Source: Brienomyrus brachyistius
Lineage: Eukaryota > Chordata > Actinopteri > Osteoglossiformes > Mormyridae
Direction of reading: 5' to 3'
Assembly: GCF_023856365.1 (NCBI RefSeq)
Contig: NC_064554.1
Location: forward strand, 10,827,801 to 10,891,800
DNA: 64,000 nt
Positions 1 to 42,465 of the stretch are shown here, piece by piece (position 1 is the first letter of the stretch; each line of letters begins with the position of its first letter). The position numbers were made by a program, and so were the translations under genes. Under the pieces are notes generated by a model, which did not search any database, was not told the DNA's origin, and was given only the letters and a program-made list of their open reading frames with translations.

Positions 1-1007
1 ATAGTATTCCTAAGGAATACTTTCTTTGGGCTTTGTGATCAAATTATCCGATCCAGTTAAATTTTTTTATTCAGTTTACTAAAGTTATGGCACTGTTAAG
101 CTCAATTCACAGTGAAGTGAACTATTATTAATTTTACTTTTAAAAGGAGCCTAACTCTCTGCTAATTGCTTTTGAAAATGTAGTAGAATAATATTTCCCG
201 TCTGGTACCGACATCCTTGTACCGATATCCTTATTTTACCTAATAAAGCGGTCAGTGAGTGTGTACAGTATTGCATGAAAACGTGATTTTCGGAGCAGCA
301 GATCCCACCTCCATACGGCGCATTCATGAATCTTCGCAGGACGAACCGCACCTGCGACCCTCTGCTGCCACCTGCAGGTGAGCCGGTAAAGGTGGCTTTG
401 GAGAGCGACAGTGACGTAAAACCGGAGTGGATGTTCTGTTCGCACGGTGTACCATGCAATGTTTTCGTCCGTGAGAATCCTTATTTTGCGTTAGCATCAA
501 ACGCTAGCAGAATTAGCATTTGCTTGAGTAAAATGTGCATTACGAATAGATTCCGTTCAGCTGTTGGAAATTTTCAAAGTTCCAAGTTATCGGGAATCCA
601 TCACTATATCGCGATTTGTAATACTACTAATAATGAATAATATATAGAATGGAGTCCTTTGTTCCCACAGATAATAAACCCAGATCACTGGTTCTTTCTT
701 ATCTCCGTGCATTTCGACCAATCAGATAGTGGTGACGCAACCAGCTTAGTTTATAAAGATAATAAAATAAATGAATAAATAATTTTAAAATGGCAGGGCC
801 GAGTCGGCACTGTATGCTGGTTACATCATTTCCACACCAGACCTGCTGTGCAGCAGTGCACAACATGAAACATCTTGGCTCGGATAATTTACAATGGAAA
901 ACCATCGCTTCCCAGTTCGGTTCGGTTCTTGTGACAGTGGAAAAGCGCCCATAGGAACAGCATGTTATAATAAGCATTAAAAATAACAGTGATGGTATCC
1001 ATGCTTG
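1..1007. other. Sequence downstream of adsl, no gene recognised
   Basis: AT-rich DNA with only short ORFs that resemble no family I know. A canonical AATAAA polyadenylation hexamer for adsl (minus strand) lies at 1008-1013, so the adsl transcript probably ends around 985. I see no tRNA, repeat array or coding exon in the rest. Confidence 0.5.
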
Positions 1008-1013
1008 TTTTAT
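1008..1013 (-). terminator. Polyadenylation signal of adsl
   Basis: TTTATT on the plus strand reads AATAAA on the minus strand, about 160 nt downstream of the adsl stop codon at 1174. No closer canonical hexamer was seen. Confidence 0.6.
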
Positions 1014-1173
1014 TGTACCTCTTCCATCAAACAGACAGAGCTACCAGGGTCAGTAACAGCTCATCCGGTACATTGAGGTGCTCGCTGGCTCAAGACACAC
1101 AACCCACACTTAAGCCCCAAACACTCCAAGACCCACAGCGGCCGCTAGTGCCCAGATGGAATTCATCCAAGTG

Positions 1174-4100
1174 CTATAGCTCCAGTTCAATTTTGACATT
1201 CATCTTCTCCTTGAAGGGCTCCAGCAGGGGATATACCTCCTCAGACAGGAACCTCGACACCTGGCAGAGAGTGGAAATAAACGTCAAGCCAAATCTGAGC
1301 TAACAAAACAGCTGTTTGCCAACAGTTATCTCGCTGAGGTTATTGCACTGCTGCACATGATTACCTGCTGTGGGGCTCTCCCAATGAACGTTTTGGGGTC
1401 CAGTAAGGTGTCAAGTTCGCCAAGAATCGGGGCAAAATAGGGGTCTGCCTTCACACGGGCCAGAAGGTCATTGTCACCACCTTCCTGTTTGACCACAGCA
1501 GCTGCTTGCTGGGAAAGTACTCTGATTTTTTCGTGACAGTCCTGAAAGAGGAAAGGGGTTTTCAGACATGCTTCTGGGAAACAGCCATTCTGAGGAGAAC
1601 TATGCAGAAAATTATGACATGACAAAAAAAGAGGATGATGTGATGCGATTCTGTGAATCTCTATTGGTCAGTCTGAACCCGCGTGTCATCTAGTTCTAGT
1701 GGTCTACTTATACTGGTCTGTCTGTACAAATCACAAAGACAGCTATCTCACGTAAGGGGTAGGATAATCACATGTTAGACCCACATGAGGGCCTGAAGGC
1801 GAGGCTGATACCTGTCTGTTACCTCCAGCTTTCACCATGGCCATGATGAGGTTCTCGGTGGCCATGAAGGGCAGCTCATGACGGATATGCCGCTCAATCA
1901 CCTACGAAGGAAGGAGAAGCTGTTCAGTATGTCATTTCCCACTTACAACCTTAGTTTAAATGTCTAAATGCATGTTTGTACGGTTCTAAGCGTCCCAGGA
2001 AGTCGACGTGCCTTGGGATAGACAACGAGGCCTTCGGTGATGTTCTGCAGGGTGCTGAGGATGATGTCCGCAGTCAGGAAGGACTCAGCCAGAGAGATGC
2101 GGCTAAGAGATGGAGAACAGGAAGGTCAGCAGACTGGGTCGCCCGCTCCAGGGGGAGCAATGCGGTACCACATACCGGTTGGCGCTGTCGTCCAGCGTTC
2201 GCTCCAGCCATTGCACTGAGGCCGTCTGCAGTGGGTCAGAGAGGAGCGCCACCAAGTGGCGGGACAGGCTACAGCACCGCTCTGCCCGCATGGGATTCCG
2301 TTTGTAGGGCATGGCGCTGGACCCTGAAGGGTGGGACATATACCGGATGTAAGGTTTAGGTACTGCAATCTAGGGCGGTACAACAGCAGTGATGCAGGTT
2401 TGGGTCTACATCCAATCTGCATTGTGCAGGAATGTATCACAACACACCAATGTAAAGTGCCACTATATAAAAATAAACTAAACTGAATTGTGGTTGCAAG
2501 GAACTACAAATCCCATGAACCTCAGCTCACCGATCTGCTCCTTCTCAAACGGCTCCTCGATCTCCTTCAAGTTGGCCAGCAGGCGGATGTCCGTGCAGAT
2601 CTGGGGGTGGGGCGGCAGTACGTGCTCAGTCAATACAGAGGGAAGTTCGACTAGGTGGGTGACAGGGCCCTCAGGTCTCATCAGGCCCCAGACGGCTGAG
2701 TGGCAGTGGGTCTGACAGTCTGCTCACCTTATGCACCGTGGCTCCCAGACTGGCCAGGACTGACAGCGAGTCTATGTCCACCTTGCGACTGTACGTCTGC
2801 CCCGTTACCAGGTACGCCCTAGACAGACACAGACAGGCATTCTGACGTGTCTACGGGGCACACCTATCCCAAAAGCCAGCAGTAAACTTACTTTTTAAAC
2901 CCCGCCATTTCTGTGACCATCCTGTCCAACTCTTCTACCTGCAAAAGAAGCATTCTTTCAGCTGGACTTAAGTCTACCATCTTTCAGGCCTGGGAAATAA
3001 TGTCCAGCTACTCAGTTCTTTCATCTGTGTTTTGTGCTCACTTTATCATGGTCCCCCTGGAAAAGCTGCAGGAAGCTGGCCTGTGTGCCCGTGGTTCCTT
3101 TGACCCCCCGGAAACGCAGGTCATCCCTGGCACGCTGAAGGTTCCGCATGTCCATAGTCAGGTCCTGCAACCAAAGACAAGCCCGCTTCCCCACCGTGGT
3201 CAGCTGGGCAGGTCTGGGTGGGCAGACAGGGAGAGAAAGTTCGTTCACTAATTTATAGCTTGAAGGAGGGCGCTGACGCTGACAAGGAAACAGCAAAGAA
3301 AAAAAGCAAGGGGAAGGAGACCTACTGGTAATGTGTGAAACCCAGCGTGGGTAGATCAGCATATTTCTCAGCAAAGGTAGCCAGTCTATCTATCACTCGA
3401 GCCAGCTGAGCAAGAAGGGAGAAGCCAGGGTTACCAATGCAAAAGTCCAGCCATCCATGGCTTATCCGGCACAGTGGCACACTGTGCTACTGTGACGTGA
3501 TTTTAAACGACTTACCTTCGGTAGGAGAATGTCAAACCCATCCCGCAGGACAATCAGATCCTGAAGGACCATTAGAAATTAAACGTCAAAACACACTACA
3601 GGCCACATCAGAACTAGGAGGCATCTACTTGTGATCGTAAGACCTTAATGTCACGATAGGTGAACAACGCAACATGTACACCAAGAAGGACATAGATTCC
3701 CTCGTGAAGAAAATCGGAAATGACTATATTACAATAAATATATGATAAACTGGAAAACATCCTCTGGAAATTCTTATTTAAACCATATTAAAACAACACC
3801 TGTGTGCATAGAAACTGATTCAGTTTGATTATGCAGCCTTGCCTTTTACCACTACGCCACCTGGTTGTCTCAAAGGGTAGTGCTGGGTGGCCCTGTGAGT
3901 CCTCACCGTGTTGTCCCCCACGTAGCAGGACGTGGCCCCCAGGTGGATGATGGGCGCGGCAGTGGGGCAGCAGTGGGCAAAGGTATGCACATGTGCCATT
4001 ACGTCATGCCGAAGCCTTTTCTCCTCCTCCGCCGCCATTGCGAAGTCGACATCCTCTGCACGGCTCTCCATCTCGGCCACCTGGGCATCGGTGATAGGCA

Positions 4101-5255
4101 ATCCAAGGGCCTTCGAGCAGAAGATGGGATTGGCAGGGAGAGACGGGGTGAATACAGAGACAGAAGAATAGCCCTGGTCTTCAAAATGCTCTCAAGACCT
4201 TGGAGAAACTCCTGCTAAGGCTAACCAAGGTGCAGGGCTGCTAGTTAACGTGTCTCTCCTCCTGCATCCTTCTCAACTAACACTCTTACCTGCTACAGCG
4301 TGCCTGCCACTGGAAATACTGGCATTTCTTCTGCATGCTGAACAATTAGACCAATTTGCCTACAATTGTTACTTGCAATAAACCGGCTAAGCGGATGCAT
4401 GTGACTTCAGACATTCATTCATTTTCAGATTTCCTGTCGCTTGTTTGTACCGCAAAGGATCGAAACAGCGAGCGTCAAAGGAATTAAACTGAACTGCTAC
4501 CAAACATGAAATTATTTTTTAAATTTACAAAATTATATTCCCGTATCAAAAAAAACTGCATTAGCATTTTCAAAATCAAGTAATTATTTAATGATCTCAC
4601 TGCACTAAACTCAGAACTCCCAAGTGTGCAAGAGTTCTTTGAAAGAGTGCAGATCCTGACGGAAAATACCATACCTTCCAAGGTACCTAATATAGGATTC
4701 GAGTAATAGCTAATGCATGTCATGTCACGCTTTTACTACATGTTAACTTTGATTCGCGTATTACAAATCGTGCGACAGCATGCAGATTCCCGAAAGCATA
4801 CCCTATATTCCTAATTACTCAAATCGTCGGTTAAGCAATACAGATTGGTCGATGTTCGCGTCTTGGGTTTTGAAAACGACCTCTTGACAACTATTTTTGG
4901 TTATGCAATTTGAGATGAGTTGCTAAAGGTCGACCACTTCGATAAATGTCCACAATTCACAGCAAGAATTACTTCGGGGACTGTAAATAAGCAAAACGGC
5001 ACACTAGATACATGTAAAACCAATCTACGGCTGTTTGGTCCGTCTGTAAACTCTGTAAAAGAGGAGACAATCACAGCGTACTGACAAACAAACAGAGCAC
5101 TGTTAGACCTTCTCAGCTTTGGCAAGGTAAATCCATAGTTTTCTCCACGTCGTGAATTTCTTCCTGTCGCTGAAATTGTAGGACATTTCTTTGCTGGCAT
5201 ATCGTGAGACTAGAGGCGATCGATATTTCATAAATTCATCCCCCGGCGTATCCAT
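1174..5255 (-). CDS. adsl: Adenylosuccinate lyase, 13 exons
   Basis: Adenylosuccinate lyase of the fumarase/aspartase superfamily. It releases fumarate from SAICAR and from adenylosuccinate in purine synthesis and the purine nucleotide cycle, as a cytosolic homotetramer. Coding exons on the minus strand: 5255-5109, 4110-3907, 3560-3516, 3405-3326, 3213-3042, 2938-2892, 2818-2728, 2600-2531, 2323-2176, 2102-2012, 1901-1812, 1541-1365, 1260-1174. They sum to 1,449 nt, or 482 residues against 484 in human. Seen in the sequence: the [17 protein letters not shown] block, the [11 protein letters not shown] block, the [10 protein letters not shown] block and the superfamily signature [11 protein letters not shown] near residue 288, and a C-terminus reading [18 protein letters not shown]. 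The start is the ATG opening [20 protein letters not shown], which aligns with the known SPLASRYASPEM region. The intron after exon 10 seems to use a GC donor, and the exon 1 donor (AAG then GTCTAA) is weak. Confidence 0.95.
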
Positions 5256-26546: not shown

Positions 26547-28572
<2,026 letters not shown>

Positions 28573-29051
28573 TTTCTCTGCTAGATGAGATTGGGTGGAG
28601 ACCATTAATTCACACATCAAATGACTAATATTACCGTCACAAAAATGCAGATTATTGTCAAAGTTTAGCGTTTCACTTCTGTGAACCACAAAATCAGCAA
28701 ATACACAGAGCTGAAGCCCCTACGCACCACCTTCACTCTCCCTAGGATGCCAGCTGTACATTGCAATTTGGTTTCAGCATGACATGTCCTGATTTCCAAC
28801 AGCATGTACCCATTAAATAAAAACAAACTCTTCTGAGTAAAGCCTAAGCTTAGAGTCAGGGGACAGAGTCAGTGGGCCAGGAGGAATATAGGTTAAGGGT
28901 CTTGTTCAAGGACCCAAAGGTGATCTGATTATTCTGCCAACCAACAGATCTGAACCTATAACATTCCGGTCACAGCCCCCACCGTCACTAACCCACTAAG
29001 CTATACACTGTCCTCCCCCACAATCTCCAACCCATTGAGTTACACACACCT

Positions 29052-33747: not shown

Positions 33748-36700
33748 ATGGAAATGAAGCTGCTTGACTTCCCCATTCCCAAGCTGGAGGTCACCCTGGG
33801 CGAGGCCAGCCGTGTGCTGCAGCTCACCCTGGATCCCCAGCAGTACTCAGACTATGAGAGTACCCTGTCCCACCAGAAGGGGGTGCTTCAAGACATGCAT
33901 GCCCAATTGGCTGCCACTGCGTCCAGACACGAGAACTGGGTGACCGACCAGTTCAAGTGCCGTCTGCTCTCTTGCCGTGAACCTCTGCCCACCTCCACCG
34001 CCGTCCCTGCTGTCCTGGCCCCCTCCAGATCTCAGCGGACCGGCGTCCCAGCTGAGCGCGCAGCAGCTCTACTCTGGGCGGTGGCCAGGCTCTGCACTGA
34101 GCCGCAGCTGGTGGAGGGTGAAGCTCCCACAGAGAGGACACAGCAGTCGGAGATCTTCTCCGCCAGCCGCCTCCCTGGTAAAAGTCTGGACCAGATTCAG
34201 GTGAGCTTCATGCCTAAATATTACTTCCAGACTGATTAGGAATGCTCACCCCATGTCCTGAAAATGAAAATGCAGCTTCTCGCTCACATACTGAAGCCCC
34301 TAAAGCCCATTTCAGACAACGCTTTATACTTGAAGGCTACGTTTGGAATTTCCCGTACTGGATATTTTCTGTGAAGTATTTCACCGTTGCCTGCATATAT
34401 GGCAGCAGAGCTCCACCCAAAATCCTTAATCATGATCCAATCGGCTGTCCTTTACTCTCCGCCTATCTGGGTTTTCTCCAGGTTTTCCCGGACAGCCTTC
34501 ATGCCATCTTGATCTGCCATGGAGGGATATTCCCAGTGCAGATCCTGTGTCGTCCGAATCCTGGGGTGCCCCCATACCCGCTACCTTTCCTCGACATCTA
34601 CAGCCAGGTGGCAGAGGCCGCCAATTGGCCCCAAGCAGCTGAGGAACAGGACCCTGCCATCATCTGTGGCTTCTCCACCCTCCCACGCCAGGACTGGCAT
34701 GCCCTGAGGCAGCGCATCCTAGACAGCGGGGGAGAAGCGGCCGTCTCGCTTGAGCTGATGGAAAGCGCCGTGGTGGCCCTGACTCTGGACAATTCTCCAC
34801 CTCCACCTGGTCTGGCTGAAACCCTCAACAAACTGAGACTTGGGAGAGATGATGGACGTTGCCTGCGATACTATGACAAGGTAATGGAAGGTCTTTATGG
34901 GATGCTTTTGACATGTGGTGACCAAAAGGGAAAAAAGCTCCAGTGAGACAACATGGAATAACGACTAAATCATACTTTATGGAGGGTGAAGTAACTTATG
35001 ATTTTAGAATTTGCCTTTTAATTAAAACAAGCAGAAGATGACCGAATAGAACCTATGTAGTGTAGAATAGCTGGTCTGAGCAATGAGAGTGGTGTCTATT
35101 TCTGATGAGTATCGTGTTTCTCACAGGTGATGAATATAGTGGTTTTCCAGGACAGCACGGCAGGTGTGGTGTTTGAGCACAGTGCCGTGGATGGCATGGT
35201 CGCCAGCTTGGTGACAGAGAGCGTGTGGCACCTCTCTGAGTCACTTCAATTAAGCCAACTTCTGCCGGAGGCTGGACTCAGCCCTCAGAACATCTTGAGT
35301 ACCAGCAATTCCTTATCTCTTCATCCACTGTCCTTCCCGCTACAGGCCATAAGGCAGCAAAGCACCCCCACCCCCCAATCACTTCTTCAGGCTTCCCATC
35401 CTATCATGACATTTGAGGTTCCATCTTATCCAGATATCTTCAGCACCCTGAGAGCTCACAGGGCCTTGTTCGATGCATGGGTCAATTTCTCCTTACAACT
35501 TGCCCTTTGGCAGACTCTCAGGGATTCTGCTAAGAGACACATCCTGGTCACACCCACCCATATGCGTCACTATAAGCATGGCCGCTGTGATCCCACATTC
35601 ACTTCAACTGTGCAGTCCCACCAGCTACTGAAGGTCTTAATGTCCTGCACTGGGCCCAGCAACACCCTTCAGCACACCAAAGACCTCTTGTGTCTCTTTC
35701 ATCAAGCATTCCAGGAGCACAAGCACCTCATCAAAAACACAAAAAGTGGTCAGGGTGTAGGTCCTCACTTGGCTGCCCTACGCTTACCTTTATCCCAGGA
35801 CAACCCTCTTAAAAAGTTTCTAGATCCCTTTGGCTGTCCTTCAGTCTACCTCACAGGCAAAGATTTGATGGAAGGGGTGGAGTGCGCCGTGGGGAATGTG
35901 TATGCGCAGGACCAGCTGGCTGTCACCTACCTTGGAAGAAGAGACCGAGTTCGCATGGTCCTTAATGGGAAAGGTAGTTTTGCTAATGTTTTGGACCAAC
36001 TTCAGGAGAACCTTAAAAACACTCTTAAACTGATGATGCTGTTGGCTCTGAGGTACGCTATCGCAGCTCAAATGGGGGCACTGGAATGCTGGTTGCATGA
36101 TCAAGATGATATGACAGAGAAGGAAAATCCAGTCACTGAAGCAGGAGGTTTCAATCAGCAGAAAGCTTCTTCTGGTTTGACTGCAGATATGAAATCAGAT
36201 TTCACTCTGCTGATCCATGGTGGGGCTGGGGAGGACATGACACTGAAGCAGAATGAGATAAATATGATTGAGTTCTCACTGCAGTCAGCCCTAATGCTGG
36301 GGGCACGAGAGTTAGGAGGTGGAGGCAGCAGCCTCAATGCAGTTGAGAGATGCGTGTCTGCACTTGAGGACTGCTTCTTGTTCAATGCCGGCAAAGGTTC
36401 AGTGTTCAACAGGGAAGGGAGGAACGAAATGGAGGCAACTATCGTAGATGGCAGCGAACTGAATTCTGGGTCTGTGGCTTGTGTGAAAACAGTGAAAAAC
36501 CCAGTCAAAGCAGCAAGGAAGGTCATGGAGAAGAGCCCCCATGGACTCCTGGTTGGAGATGGTGCCGAAGCATTCCTGCAGTGCCTGGATGACAAGGAGA
36601 AGCCAATGGGAGCTGAGTACTTTCACACTGATGTGCGGCACAAGGAGCTGAAGATGAAACTCATGGATAGAGGTACCTCAAGAAGCAACCACCCACAAAC

Positions 36701-39035
36701 AGTAGGAGCCGTCGCTTTGGATCGGCATGGGAAGCTGGCTGCAGCAACGTCCACCGGCGGGTTAGTGGGAAAGTGCGCAGGACGAGTTGGAGACACGGCA
36801 GTGGTGGGTGCTGGGATTTTTGCTGATGCGAAGTTGGCAGTGACCTGCTCTGGAGATGGGGATGTGTTTCTGAGAAGGACGGTTGCACACAAAGTAGCTA
36901 GTCTCTACCACCACAAAGGCCATAGTCTCCAGGAAGCCTGTAAGGAGGTGATTTCTGAACACCTGAAGGGGTCTTGTGCAGGAATAATAGCTGTTGATGC
37001 TTGTGGTGACACTGCGATTGAATGTAATGCAGGGGTGATGTTTGTTGGATCAATAATACGGGGCACCGCATGTGCTCAAGTCATAAGACCCTTAAAAACT
37101 TATTCTAATGTAATTTGGGAGACAGATAAACTAGTAGCCTACTTACACTCTGAGCCATGGACTCCAGGAGCAACAATACTTACTCAAAAGAACCCAAACA
37201 TGCCCAACAGTATCTTTCATCTTCCAGAGCAAGAGTTCCTAGAGCTCCTTCTAGGGGCGAAGACGGTCGCCAATCTTCTCTGTGAACAACTAGAGGTACA
37301 GCATTGTGCTCTAGTGTTCAAGCCACAACCGGAGCGAGCAGCTCACATCCGACTGTTGCCACTGCATGGACTGGAACCAAACTGGAAGCCTCACCTTGCT
37401 GAAGAAATGAACTTCCAGTATTATGACCCTGGTTACTGTACTTCTAAGAATGGTCCACTTTGTGAGGATGCAGAACTAAAAAAAGTCCAAGCTAAAATTA
37501 GATCATACCTTTCGACACCTGATACACCACCTAGCTATAAATTTCTTGGAGACCCTTCCCACGATAACCTCTTTTCCCGCATAGTGCGTGGGGAGGAGAA
37601 ACAGTGGAGAGTGTGGGAAAGCAGTGAGCATGTGGCTTTCCTCACACCATTTCCCAGTGCTCCAGGTTTTACCGTTCTTGTGCCACGTCGCCCACTACCA
37701 AGCAATATCTTTTGCTTGGAGGAAGACGACTACAAGGCTTTGGTCCTGGCCTCCCGTGAAGTAGCCCATCTGCTGAAAAAGGCAATGGGTGCCCATGGGG
37801 TGGCGCTAATCTTTGAAGGCTATGAGATTGATTACGCCCATGCAAAATTGATTCCATTGCTTTCACCGCCTGAAAATTTTCATTTAAGCAGCATCCCCCA
37901 GTTTTGTTCAACCTACCAGGGGTATGTGACATCTGCCGATGGCCCACTGGCTACTCCTGATAGTCTGAAAGAGATCCAATCAAAAGTCACACGCTGCAAA
38001 CCACCTCAATCTTGGAAGGACCCTGAAAAACACGCTGATCTAGCTGTCAGAAGCCAGTGGTACCGCCAGCTCTTTAAAATCCAGGATACTCTTTTTCATT
38101 CTACTGTGGAGTTTTTTCACAACATCTGCAGGTATGCATACGCTCTGACTCCCATCACTACTGACACCATCTCCTCACCCATGGGCCTCGGATCTGACTC
38201 TGAGCCAGTTCATGTAAACATGCTTGGGCAGGATGTCTACTTAGCAGACTCCATGCAGTTCATCCTTGAGTATTTCCTGCGCTTTCAGGAAGGCCTGCGA
38301 GGTACCTATTACGTGTCACCCAGTTTCCGTGGGGAAGATCCTGACGCTACACACCTGAACCAGTTCTATCATGTGGAATGTGAGCTTCCGGGAGACATGG
38401 AAATGGCTATGCATGTAGCTGAAAACTATGTAGCCCACCTCACACACACAATGCTGAAAAAACACTCTGACATTATCTTGGTGTGTGCCGGGACCCTCTT
38501 CCATGCTCAGAGTCTGCTGAAGAGTTTAGATGGACAGGAACGCCTACCAAGGGTCACACTGGAGCAGGCCTTGCCTATGATGCCATCTGAGGATTGTTTT
38601 GAATGGGTGCAGGATGGACAACCCCAGTATGGGAAGAAACTGACGCGTAAAGGGGAGCAAGTCCTGATCAGGAGGTATGGGGGAGCGGTTTGGCTGACGG
38701 AAATGGACCACCTCGGGGTGCCTTTCTACCAGGCGTATGTCGAGGGATCGGGGAAGCAAAAAGCCAAAGCAGCAGACCTTCTCCTGGGTCTGGGAGAGAC
38801 CATCGGCCTGGGGGAGAGGCACTCCACCCCTGAGATGGTGCAAGAGGCCTTGAGGCACCATGCAGTGCCAGAAGAATCTTACAAATGGTACATTCAGATG
38901 CGTCAGATGAAGGCCCTACTCAGCAGTGGCTGGGGCATGGGCACCGAGCGATACCTGTGCTGGCTGCTCCAGCACGATGACGTCAGAGACATGCACATCA
39001 TACCTCGTCTGAAGGCCAAGAAGTACATGCCGTGA
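33748..39035 (+). CDS. Multi-enzyme fusion: carnitine/choline acyltransferase, asparaginase, two HIT-like, AsnRS-like domains
   Basis: Three exons (33748-34200, 34482-34880, 35127-39035), all joined in phase 0, encode 1,586 residues; I do not recognise a named gene. Residues 1 to about 610 are a carnitine/choline O-acyltransferase: opening FPIPKLEVTLGEASRVLQLT, NWVTDQF, and the catalytic His302 in FEHSAVDGM. The STS motif position appears changed. From about 642 to 935 is an isoaspartyl peptidase/asparaginase: LLIHGGAGED, FNAGKGSVFN, and the nucleophile-type Thr809 in PQTVGAVALD then ATSTGG. From about 946 to 1250 are two HIT-like modules, each with an HxK-type or eroded triad (AAHIRLLPLHG, YAHAKLIPLL). 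From about 1262 to the end is a class II synthetase core with motif 2 (FRGEDPDATHLNQFYHVECE) and motif 3 (GWGMGTERYLCWLL), closest to asparaginyl-tRNA synthetase. No signal peptide or membrane span is apparent, so a cytosolic role is likely. The start ATG could be preceded by an unseen exon. Confidence 0.85.
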
Positions 39036-40613: not shown

Positions 40614-40686
40614 CGCCCAACGTGGGGCTCGAACCCACGACCCTGAGATTAAGAGTCTCATGCTCTACCGACTGAGCTAGCCGGGC
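40614..40686 (-). tRNA. tRNA-Lys (anticodon CTT)
   Basis: Reading the minus strand: acceptor GCCCGGC pairs with GTTGGGC, box A is TAGCTCAGTCGG, the anticodon loop is CTCTTAA with anticodon CTT, box B is GGTTCGAGCCC, and the 3' end is discriminator G. The length is 73 nt with no intron and no mismatch that would suggest a pseudogene. No CCA is encoded, as expected for a eukaryote. A terminator-like T run just downstream on the minus strand is short (GCGATT... with TTTT near 40607 absent), so transcription termination is not clear. Confidence 0.95.
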
Positions 40687-40986: not shown

Positions 40987-41310
40987 GAAGAGAGGACAAT
41001 GGGGGCGACGTTGCGGTAGCGCCCTTTACGCTCCCCAAACAGATCGCAGTGATAGGTTACGGAGAGGGGTTGGTCCGCATAAACACGACATTACGGTAAC
41101 GTCCTTTTCACTCCCCAAACTGATCGCAGTAACACGTTATGGAGAGGGGTGTGTCCGCATAAACACGACATTACGGTAGCGCCCTTTACACTCCCCAAGC
41201 TGTTCTCAGTGATAGGTTACGGAGAGGGGTGGGTCCGCATAAACACGATATTACGGTAACGTCCTTTACACTCCCCAAACTGATCGCAGTGATAGGTTAC
41301 GGAGAGGCTG
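40987..41310. repeat. Four 80-bp tandem repeats upstream of mpst
   Basis: Repeat starts recur exactly 80 nt apart: GACGTTGCGGTAGCGCCC at 41007, GACATTACGGTAACGTCC at 41087, GACATTACGGTAGCGCCC at 41167, GATATTACGGTAACGTCC at 41247. Each is followed by CACTCCCCAAACTGATCGCA-like text and GGTTACGGAGAGG. The array ends about 90 nt before the mpst start codon, so it probably overlaps the core promoter. Confidence 0.9.
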
Positions 41311-41395
41311 GGTCTTCACTTCCGTGTGTCTGGTAGGAAAAGCCAGTTTACAAACATTCGCCGGCCGACTTTATCGTCTGCGAAATATAACTGAC

Positions 41396-42465
41396 ATGTC
41401 AATTAATATACGTGCTCTCGTCGGAGCGAAATGGCTAGCTGAAGCAGTGAAGAATAACCTTCTGGGGCCTAAGTTGCGTGTTTTGGACACTTCGTGGTAC
41501 CTACCCAAACTGAAACGTAACCCTTCAGTCGAATTCAAAGAGAGACACATACCGGGGGCTTCCTTCTTCGATATTGATCTATGCTGTGATAAAACGTCCC
41601 CGTTTGATCACATGCTGCCAGCTGAACACGAGTTTGCGGACTATGTGGGCGACCTGGGCATCTGCAACGACACGCACGTCGTGGTGTACGACGCCAGCGA
41701 CTTCGGCTCCTTCTCCGCCCCAAGGGTTTGGTGGATGTTTCGGGTCTTTGGCCACCACTCCGTGTCCGTGCTTGACGGCGGTCTCAAGAACTGGCTAAAA
41801 GAGGGCCACCCTGTCACGGCAGATTTCTGCAAAGCTGCCTCTGCGCAGTTCAGTGCGTCTCTGCATCGGCCCTGGGTGAAAACCTACGAGGATGTCCTGA
41901 AAAACATTGAGAGCAAACTGTTTCAAGTGGTGGACGCCAGGACTGAGGGGAGATTCAGGGGAATAGAACCGGAACCAAGAGACAGTACGTATTCCAGTCT
42001 TGCAGTTTGATATTGTTATTAAAATGTTAAGACTTCAAGGAAGCAAAGCAAGACATGGCAAGCTCCTGCTCTTGCAGATAAGATCTCCTAAAACGTCTCA
42101 GCCTGTATTGTTTTAAATATGATCTGACGCGACGGTAGGTCACATGACTTTCTCGGTTCCTGACAGATACAGAGCCTGGCCATATCCCGGGCTCCATCAA
42201 CATGCCGTTCACTTGCTTCCTGGATGCCTCTGGCCTTGAACGTACACCGGAGGAGCTGGCGGAGATGTTCCGGGGTGCCGGAGTGAATTTGACCAAACCG
42301 CTGTGTGTCTCCTGCGGCTCAGGGGTGACCGCCTGTCACGTGGCCCTGGCAGCCCATCTGTGCGGCCACCCCAGCGTGTCCGTGTATGACGGGGCCTGGT
42401 CCGAGTGGTATACCAGAGCTGCCCCTGAGCACGTCATCTCGGAGGGCAGGGGGAAGCACGTGTAA
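41396..42465 (+). CDS. mpst: 3-Mercaptopyruvate sulfurtransferase
   Basis: Rhodanese-family enzyme that takes sulfur from 3-mercaptopyruvate and passes it to thioredoxin or other acceptors; it contributes to cysteine breakdown and H2S/persulfide formation in cytosol and mitochondria. Two exons, 41396-41984 and 42167-42465, 888 nt, 295 residues against 297 in human. The inactive N-terminal rhodanese domain shows [13 protein letters not shown] text and [20 protein letters not shown]; the catalytic domain shows [13 protein letters not shown]. The active-site loop is CGSGVTAC with Cys246, the MPST type, whereas thiosulfate sulfurtransferase has CRKGVTAC. The split codon regenerates EPEPRDNTEPGH. 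The ATG chosen ([18 protein letters not shown]) aligns with the human start; the frame is open upstream but has no ATG. Confidence 0.95.

Follow-up and report, generated by a model that had tools for sequence, protein, structure and literature searches.

The closest described relatives of the gene considered here are the saiyan genes (si:ch211-256m1.8) of clownfish and zebrafish, which carry the same NCBI gene name. In Amphiprion ocellaris, saiyan is one of three discussed colour genes that are expressed solely in white skin, with 0 transcripts per million in orange skin and 4.7 in white, and is described as being without previous function (PMC12918100). It has been named as a marker of reflective iridophores and linked to these cells in clownfish and zebrafish (PMC12919797), it occurs in one zebrafish toxicology gene list (PMC10606920) and it shares a joint copy gain with MIEF1 in invasive Cottus (PMC5638112). 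Where these papers mention saiyan, it figures as a gene linked to iridophores or as a neighbour, with neither domains nor an activity assigned. We found no paper on its domain combination or chemistry in the open-licence literature; the one match is a methods paper on functional-site prediction that names two of the Pfam families involved (PMC2709924). The domain architecture may be undescribed so far. In Brienomyrus brachyistius (Mormyridae) the gene lies in a window of 64,000 nucleotides (contig NC_064554.1, positions 10,827,801 to 10,891,800 of the forward strand), to which the coordinates below refer unless another contig is named, and it encodes a single protein in which acyltransferase, asparaginase, HIT and ligase domains are fused.

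Splicing of positions 33748-34200, 34482-34880 and 35127-39035 at GT/AG sites yields 1,586 residues and a stop codon. Both junctions are of phase 0, in keeping with the original prediction, which was made from the letters of this DNA and had described in-phase junctions and one continuous frame through four enzyme families. The conceptual protein is P0001, the NCBI entry si:ch211-256m1.8 of B. brachyistius, with 100% identity over 100% of its length. The Pfam search that had been proposed places all four named families above their curated cut-offs, namely Carn_acyltransf (in three exon pieces), Asparaginase_2, HIT and tRNA-synt_2. The single-frame fusion is real. His302, Thr809 and the class II motifs 2 and 3 are present as had been claimed. 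The last three domains do share one exon, as predicted, but that exon, which is open over 3.9 kb, also includes the second half of the acyltransferase. Conservation is counted over 131 proteins: P0001-P0120 from a search with the fish protein (the best 120 of 216 matches, Brienomyrus included) and P0241-P0251, taken from the 120 listed of 201 matches in a search with the protein of L065, a contig filed as bacterial and described below. In the features that follow, AsnRS denotes asparaginyl-tRNA synthetase and Ntn an N-terminal nucleophile.

33748..34200 (+), coding exon 1, residues 1-151: start of the choline/carnitine acyltransferase-like (CAT) domain; Carn_acyltransf, E 2.9e-10
34482..34880 (+), coding exon 2, residues 152-284: CAT domain continued; Carn_acyltransf, E 1.9e-7
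35127..39035 (+), coding exon 3, residues 285-1586 and stop: remaining acyltransferase, asparaginase, double HIT and AsnRS-like ligase
35178..35192 (+), predicted catalytic His302 (35178-35180) and Asp306 in FEHSAVDG, aligned with FEHSWGDG of CPT2
36204..37052 (+), Asparaginase_2 domain (Ntn hydrolase, isoaspartyl peptidase type); Pfam E 2.4e-78
36699..36701 (+), codon of Thr809, predicted nucleophile and self-cleavage site (between Gln808 and Thr809)
37092..37460 (+), first HIT-like half, bounds approximate, from the AlphaFold model, Foldseek and column counts
37557..37874 (+), second HIT half, bounds approximate, triad Y1187, H1189, K1191; Pfam HIT, E 1.6e-7
38010..39032 (+), class II synthetase core, AsnRS/asparagine synthetase A-like, start approximate; Pfam tRNA-synt_2, E 2.8e-28 over 38040-39011
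38328..38330 (+), class II motif 2, Arg1352; Arg in 130/131
38928..38950 (+), class II motif 3, GWGMGTER, Arg1559; Arg in 131/131

Other fish gene models do wrongly absorb their neighbours, a sulfurtransferase domain in Conger (P0114) and MIEF1 in Channa striata (P0108), and adjacent genes joined in error could in principle account for the fusion in Brienomyrus too. This explanation is extremely improbable and we rejected it, since half of the CAT domain and every later domain occupy a single open exon, the same order forms one open frame in L065, and it is present at full length in Lingula and Centruroides. Indirect transcript support comes from three full-length relatives: P0014, P0031 and P0038 (1,582, 1,586 and 1,574 residues) are single proteins on contigs of 6,410, 6,326 and 5,018 bases, with no insertion at either exon-junction position. 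Their source, labelled 'lgn', we take to be assembled sequencing reads, and such short, uninterrupted contigs fit a spliced transcript.

Among the matches listed with the fish protein, all that bear a name belong, judged by that name, to ray-finned fishes, as far down as gar, and full-length fusions among those listed with the L065 protein include Lingula anatina (P0242), the scorpion Centruroides sculpturatus (P0249), P0243 and P0244. The original prediction had proposed a search for the same domain order in other fishes and in invertebrates, and both have it: many ray-finned fishes on the one hand, a brachiopod and a scorpion on the other. A fusion confined to Brienomyrus or to vertebrates is rejected by these matches. 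The prediction had also regarded the combination as unseen in vertebrates, which does not stand, the gene being annotated in many ray-finned fishes and, in the literature cited above, named saiyan and linked to iridophores. No named row from tetrapods, sharks or coelacanths was present among the matches listed (120 of 216 and 120 of 201). Two rows stand apart. A gene model of Lampetra planeri (P0213) joins an AsnRS-like piece, percomorph-like by eye, to a sulfurtransferase and was set aside as possible fish contamination; an AsnRS-like protein of Micropterus salmoides (P0153), at only 55% identity, is either a second family member or a contaminant.

With the choline/carnitine acyltransferases the fusion protein shares the catalytic His-x-x-x-Asp, His302 being kept in 129/129 and Asp306 in 128/128 of the ungapped sequences. 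The exon 3, 1 and 2 pieces score 73.7, 39.8 and 30.5 bits with Carn_acyltransf against a cut-off of 22.3 (E 1.6e-20 for the exon 3 piece). A structure model was made on the L065 relative without about its first 107 residues [490 residues, mean predicted local distance difference test score (pLDDT) 72, predicted template-modelling score (pTM) 0.68] and shares the fold of choline acetyltransferase 1q6x with a template-modelling (TM) score of 0.70. At the acceptor motif CrAT has GRTDT and CPT2 has GRTET, whereas the fusion protein has GR[C/S/T]DP, with a single Ser in place of Arg. Since the carnitine motif is replaced in this way, carnitine is unlikely to be the acyl acceptor. The carnitine-like partner of the original prediction thus finds no support, Pro occupying in 127/127 ungapped sequences the position at which CrAT and CPT2 have Thr.

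The plant-type L-asparaginases and isoaspartyl peptidases (IaaA, ASRGL1) share with the fusion protein the full domain, the Thr nucleophile and T827, R837, D840, S/T859 and G860, which we take to be partner residues of the nucleophile. The best sequence match of this domain in the PDB is 2zak, an L-asparaginase precursor. Thr809 is kept in 131/131, position 827 is Thr in 129 and Ser in two, and R837 and D840 are each kept in 130/130 ungapped sequences. Members of the Asparaginase_2 family cleave themselves before this Thr, and the characterized enzymes have Gly or Asp immediately preceding it. IaaA and ASRGL1 have Gly, whereas the fusion protein has Gln in 129/131 and embeds the domain in a larger chain; the two residues before Thr809 are Pro-Gln in these 129, Val-Gly in P0241 and Gln-Arg in P0057. 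If cleavage occurs as in the relatives, the chain would be split into 808 and 778 residues.

Between the asparaginase and the synthetase core the original prediction had placed one HIT-like domain. The family assignment is confirmed by Pfam but the single fold is not: in the AlphaFold model of 37047-37964 (m98c66f2d16c9; mean pLDDT 89, pTM 0.88) the region forms two alpha/beta HIT folds in tandem. Tandem HIT folds are also seen in the GalT-like ADP-glucose phosphorylase (1zwj, 2h39) and in a uridylyltransferase (6k5z), which are the best Foldseek matches across both halves (E 7e-6 to 1.1e-5 over 277-311 columns). The fusion protein differs from that branch in its second-half triad, [Y/H]-x-H-x-K, in a first-half triad that is not conserved, and in a superposition giving TM scores of 0.46-0.49 and root-mean-square deviations of 9-12. 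Judged by the model, membership in the GalT/double-HIT branch is clear in kind but loose. The second half aligns by sequence with the canonical HxHxH of PDB chain 3p0t_A; its first triad position is Tyr in 119 and His in 12 proteins, and H1189 and K1191 are invariant (131/131). HxHxH itself is replaced in the second half and the triad positions vary in the first, which probably has no active site of its own.

AsnRS and archaeal asparagine synthetase A share with the fusion protein the class II core and its motifs 2 and 3, and a degenerate DNA pattern for motif 3 matches once in the window, compared with a mean of 0.00 after shuffling. AsnRS has an anticodon-binding OB domain before the core. 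No anticodon-binding domain was found in exon 3 (Pfam, E up to 10, within HMMER's filters), where the HIT pair precedes the core instead, and for want of such a match tRNA charging appears unlikely. Among NCBIfam models the best for the ligase is asparagine synthetase A (PRK06462, E 1.4e-56), at 192.1 bits against a cut-off of 322. The exon 3 protein matches 11 NCBIfam models, in no case reaching the curated cut-off, and four bacterial stand-alone relatives of the ligase also fall short for PRK06462 (244-282 against 322). Profiles run against the PDB instead favour AsnRS, with 129 bits for 1x54 and 67 bits for the archaeal asparagine synthetase 3p8t.

In a scan of genomes, 122 stretches proved to be related to the AsnRS-like core, and the 80 best of these loci were used to see what accompanies the unfused ligase in bacteria. 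In total 852 open reading frames (ORFs) lying no more than 6 kb from the core, those of the ligase among them, were grouped by clustering, and blastp served as a second count. A beta-aspartyl peptidase (TIGR01975, above cut-off) is present in four of the 80, overlapping or at most 15 bases away in L018, L023 and L038 and 1.5 kb away in L043. HIT proteins lie near the ligase in three (L016, L036 and L037, with Pfam checks on L016 and L037). In L016 a double-HIT frame stops four bases short of the ligase frame. One more HIT match, at 6.6 kb in L002, was left out of the count. Asparaginase_2 accompanies an unfused ligase in L052 only, besides its presence in L065. IadA-type peptidases and Asparaginase_2 have unrelated folds and a common class of substrate, the beta-aspartyl amide. 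That two unrelated kinds of beta-aspartyl hydrolase pair with this ligase suggests a beta-aspartyl bond, and the hydrolases and double HIT found beside or near the unfused ligase are the partner kinds that are fused in the fish protein. The aspartate-based chemistry of the original prediction gains this much from the bacteria, in which some unfused ligases adjoin beta-aspartyl peptidases.

The domain make-up and the bacterial loci favour a module that combines an aspartate-activating ligase, a beta-aspartyl hydrolase and a HIT part handling nucleotidyl groups, with an acyltransferase joined on. In our preferred reading, saiyan is a multi-enzyme that processes itself and that assembles and trims a small molecule with a beta-aspartyl link, by attaching, acylating and releasing. 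We hold it tentatively, as possible and short of probable. We infer its reactions, substrates, order of steps and self-cleavage as follows. The C-terminal AsnRS/asparagine synthetase A-like core would adenylate aspartate with ATP and join it to the amine of a metabolite, with no involvement of tRNA. The N-terminal CAT fold, through His302, would transfer the acyl group of a CoA thioester onto the metabolite rather than onto carnitine or, probably, choline. The Ntn domain would cut its own chain before Thr809 and then hydrolyse the beta-aspartyl amide, either freeing the product or recycling aspartate, and the double HIT, with His1189 as nucleophile, may transfer or clear a nucleotidyl group. 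Nearly all of the 131 proteins retain the active sites of CAT, Ntn, the second HIT and the ligase, which makes live activities likelier than a scaffold.

Several observations weigh against this scheme. The Gln before Thr809 departs from the Gly or Asp of characterized enzymes, such that self-cleavage is not assured. The likeness of the HIT region to known folds is loose, and the two profile searches disagree, NCBIfam placing asparagine synthetase A first and the PDB search AsnRS; the acid that is activated may be one other than aspartate. The bacterial pairings represent few independent events: L018, L023 and L038 are one arrangement, the three HIT loci belong to one clade and Asparaginase_2 occurs at one locus. 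A CAT match was found in no locus of the 80 except L065. The commonest neighbours, S66 carboxypeptidases (in 37 of the 80 when clustered and in 38 by blastp; one member, that of L001, checked by Pfam) and methyltransferases (20 by clustering, 12 by blastp; one cluster member checked by Pfam), are superfluous to the model and suggest an uncharacterized small-molecule cluster in bacteria.

The same S66 peptidases bear on a different explanation, in which saiyan is a clean-up enzyme that destroys compounds resembling aminoacyl adenylates or damaged beta-aspartyl compounds, with the class II core acting as a binder or re-ligase. The immunity toolbox for microcin C comprises an acetyltransferase, an S66 amidase and a HIT phosphoramidase, and the coincidence of HIT, acyltransferase and amidohydrolase counts in its favour along with the S66 neighbours. 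We nevertheless regard a clean-up role as very unlikely. The motif 2 and motif 3 arginines, kept in all but one and in all of the 131 proteins, speak for synthesis; the tissue connection concerns pigment cells, not defence; no PADLOC defence family matches the exon 3 protein; and we know of no toxin of the microcin C kind in fish.

The ranking of asparagine synthetase A above the other NCBIfam models admits two further explanations. In the first, which is unlikely, saiyan would be an asparagine-dependent amidotransferase, its Ntn domain releasing ammonia from asparagine and its class II core amidating an adenylated acid other than aspartate. A precedent exists in AsnB, where an Ntn glutaminase half that takes ammonia from glutamine is fused to an ammonia-using synthetase. 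Type A asparagine synthetase is described as strictly ammonia-dependent, which counts on the same side (PMC4714757). An amidotransferase would, however, leave the double HIT and the CAT domain without explanation. Furthermore, the peptidase beside or near the bacterial ligase in four of the 80 loci is of the IadA type, a beta-aspartyl dipeptidase that is not known to supply ammonia. The second explanation takes saiyan as an enzyme of aspartate/asparagine balance, whose core makes asparagine and whose Ntn domain degrades it, setting the aspartate available for the heavy purine (guanine) synthesis of iridophores, with the other domains regulatory or separate. An iridophore role is in print, in the saiyan papers cited, and the nearest NCBIfam models of two of the domains are asparagine synthetase A and beta-aspartyl peptidase. 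Yet a single chain that both makes and degrades asparagine runs a futile cycle unless the two activities are separately controlled, every one of the 11 NCBIfam cut-offs is missed, and neither HIT nor CAT is needed; we consider such a balance role quite improbable.

Returning to the fusion itself, its occurrence in a bacterium bears on how the gene has spread. Contig L065 (QNER01000461.1) is filed in a metagenome-assembled genome of the sulfur bacterium Candidatus Parabeggiatoa (Gammaproteobacteria), and its positions 1-4500 hold a five-domain fusion in one open frame of 1,499 residues that is open at the 5' end. P0241, of 1,607 residues, is 99% identical to this frame and lies on contigs of up to 32.9 kb. 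Eukaryotic contamination was considered on account of a 2-kb tail that has no ORF of 100 residues. The tail carries repeats that recur on 39 further contigs of that genome (110 matches including its own; 40 of 1,177 candidates scored), and these dispersed repeats seem to tie the contig to its bin. The GC content of the gene is 0.536, compared with 0.407 in the tail and 0.358-0.445 in five other contig samples.

A tree of the AsnRS-like domain only was made by a quick method from 70 chosen rows. A branch with 100% SH-aLRT (Shimodaira-Hasegawa-like approximate likelihood-ratio test) support splits 31 rows taken as bacterial stand-alone ligases (26 from the genome loci, one named, and P0224, P0227, P0234 and P0237 assumed bacterial) from 39 fungal, fusion and other rows, and the Parabeggiatoa fusion falls with the latter. 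Since its gene differs in GC content from the genome and lies on the eukaryotic side of the tree, transfer of the fusion gene from a eukaryote into the bacterium seems likely. The five full fusions from outside the fishes do not form one clade: four changes are required, three of them forced by starred branches, and other AsnRS-like pieces are interspersed, a pattern compatible with one origin of the fusion or with several. Relatives of the AsnRS-like domain alone reach about 47-53% identity where they come from named fungi and about 39-46% where they are bacterial; in a search that covered proteins of about 200-630 residues, Fusarium P0180 combines the domain with Asparaginase_2 and Byssothecium P0216 with HIT. 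One scan of viral contigs gave 75 pattern matches, none of them related.

By full identity and conserved neighbours the Brienomyrus gene belongs to the si:ch211-256m1.8/saiyan orthologue group. Upstream lies a MIEF1-like ORF (28354-28719, -), called by its likeness to P0108 and without a Pfam match; downstream are sulfurtransferase-like (Rhodanese) ORFs (41243-42462, +), with a tRNA-Lys (CTT) gene (40614-40686, -) between them and the fusion gene. The faulty models of Channa striata and Conger join saiyan to just these neighbours, a sign that both teleosts may share the synteny. The MIEF1 neighbour also agrees with the synteny given for Cottus and stickleback (PMC5638112). A second, near-identical copy (L103 and L106) lies on the same contig at 11777647-11782937, about 917 kb downstream, with 96.7% DNA identity over 5,549 bases; the match covers the gene and short flanks, the exon 3 frame is open and a lone TGA stands just before the start of the exon. 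A diverged, split paralogue is present on contig C5. One part, with CAT and asparaginase at 52-58% (L104, 7831864-7835571, -), ends in a stop and has Ser at the position of the nucleophile Thr and GQVGQ where the fusion protein reads GRVGD. The other, 28 kb away on the opposite strand (L107, 7862338-7863231, +), is a stand-alone open double-HIT frame of 322 residues at 69%. No AsnRS-like part was found on C5 in the genome search.

Saiyan is thus a known gene with a reported reflective-skin phenotype, and its protein offers four active sites that can be tested separately. The bacterial neighbourhoods indicate beta-aspartyl compounds as the class of substrate. It is conceivable, though we think it rather unlikely as a whole, that saiyan represents an undescribed animal multi-enzyme, an aspartyl attach-and-remove relay in one self-cleaving chain (aspartate joined to an amine, the carrier acylated, the aspartate removed), whose product is needed by iridophores and maybe also for the handling of purine crystals in guanine-excreting arachnids, and whose gene has passed between eukaryotes and a sulfur bacterium. 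If saiyan does make a metabolite that iridophores need, it would rank among the few animal small-molecule enzymes built from bacterial-style parts, and would open the chemistry of the guanine-crystal cell beyond purine synthesis.

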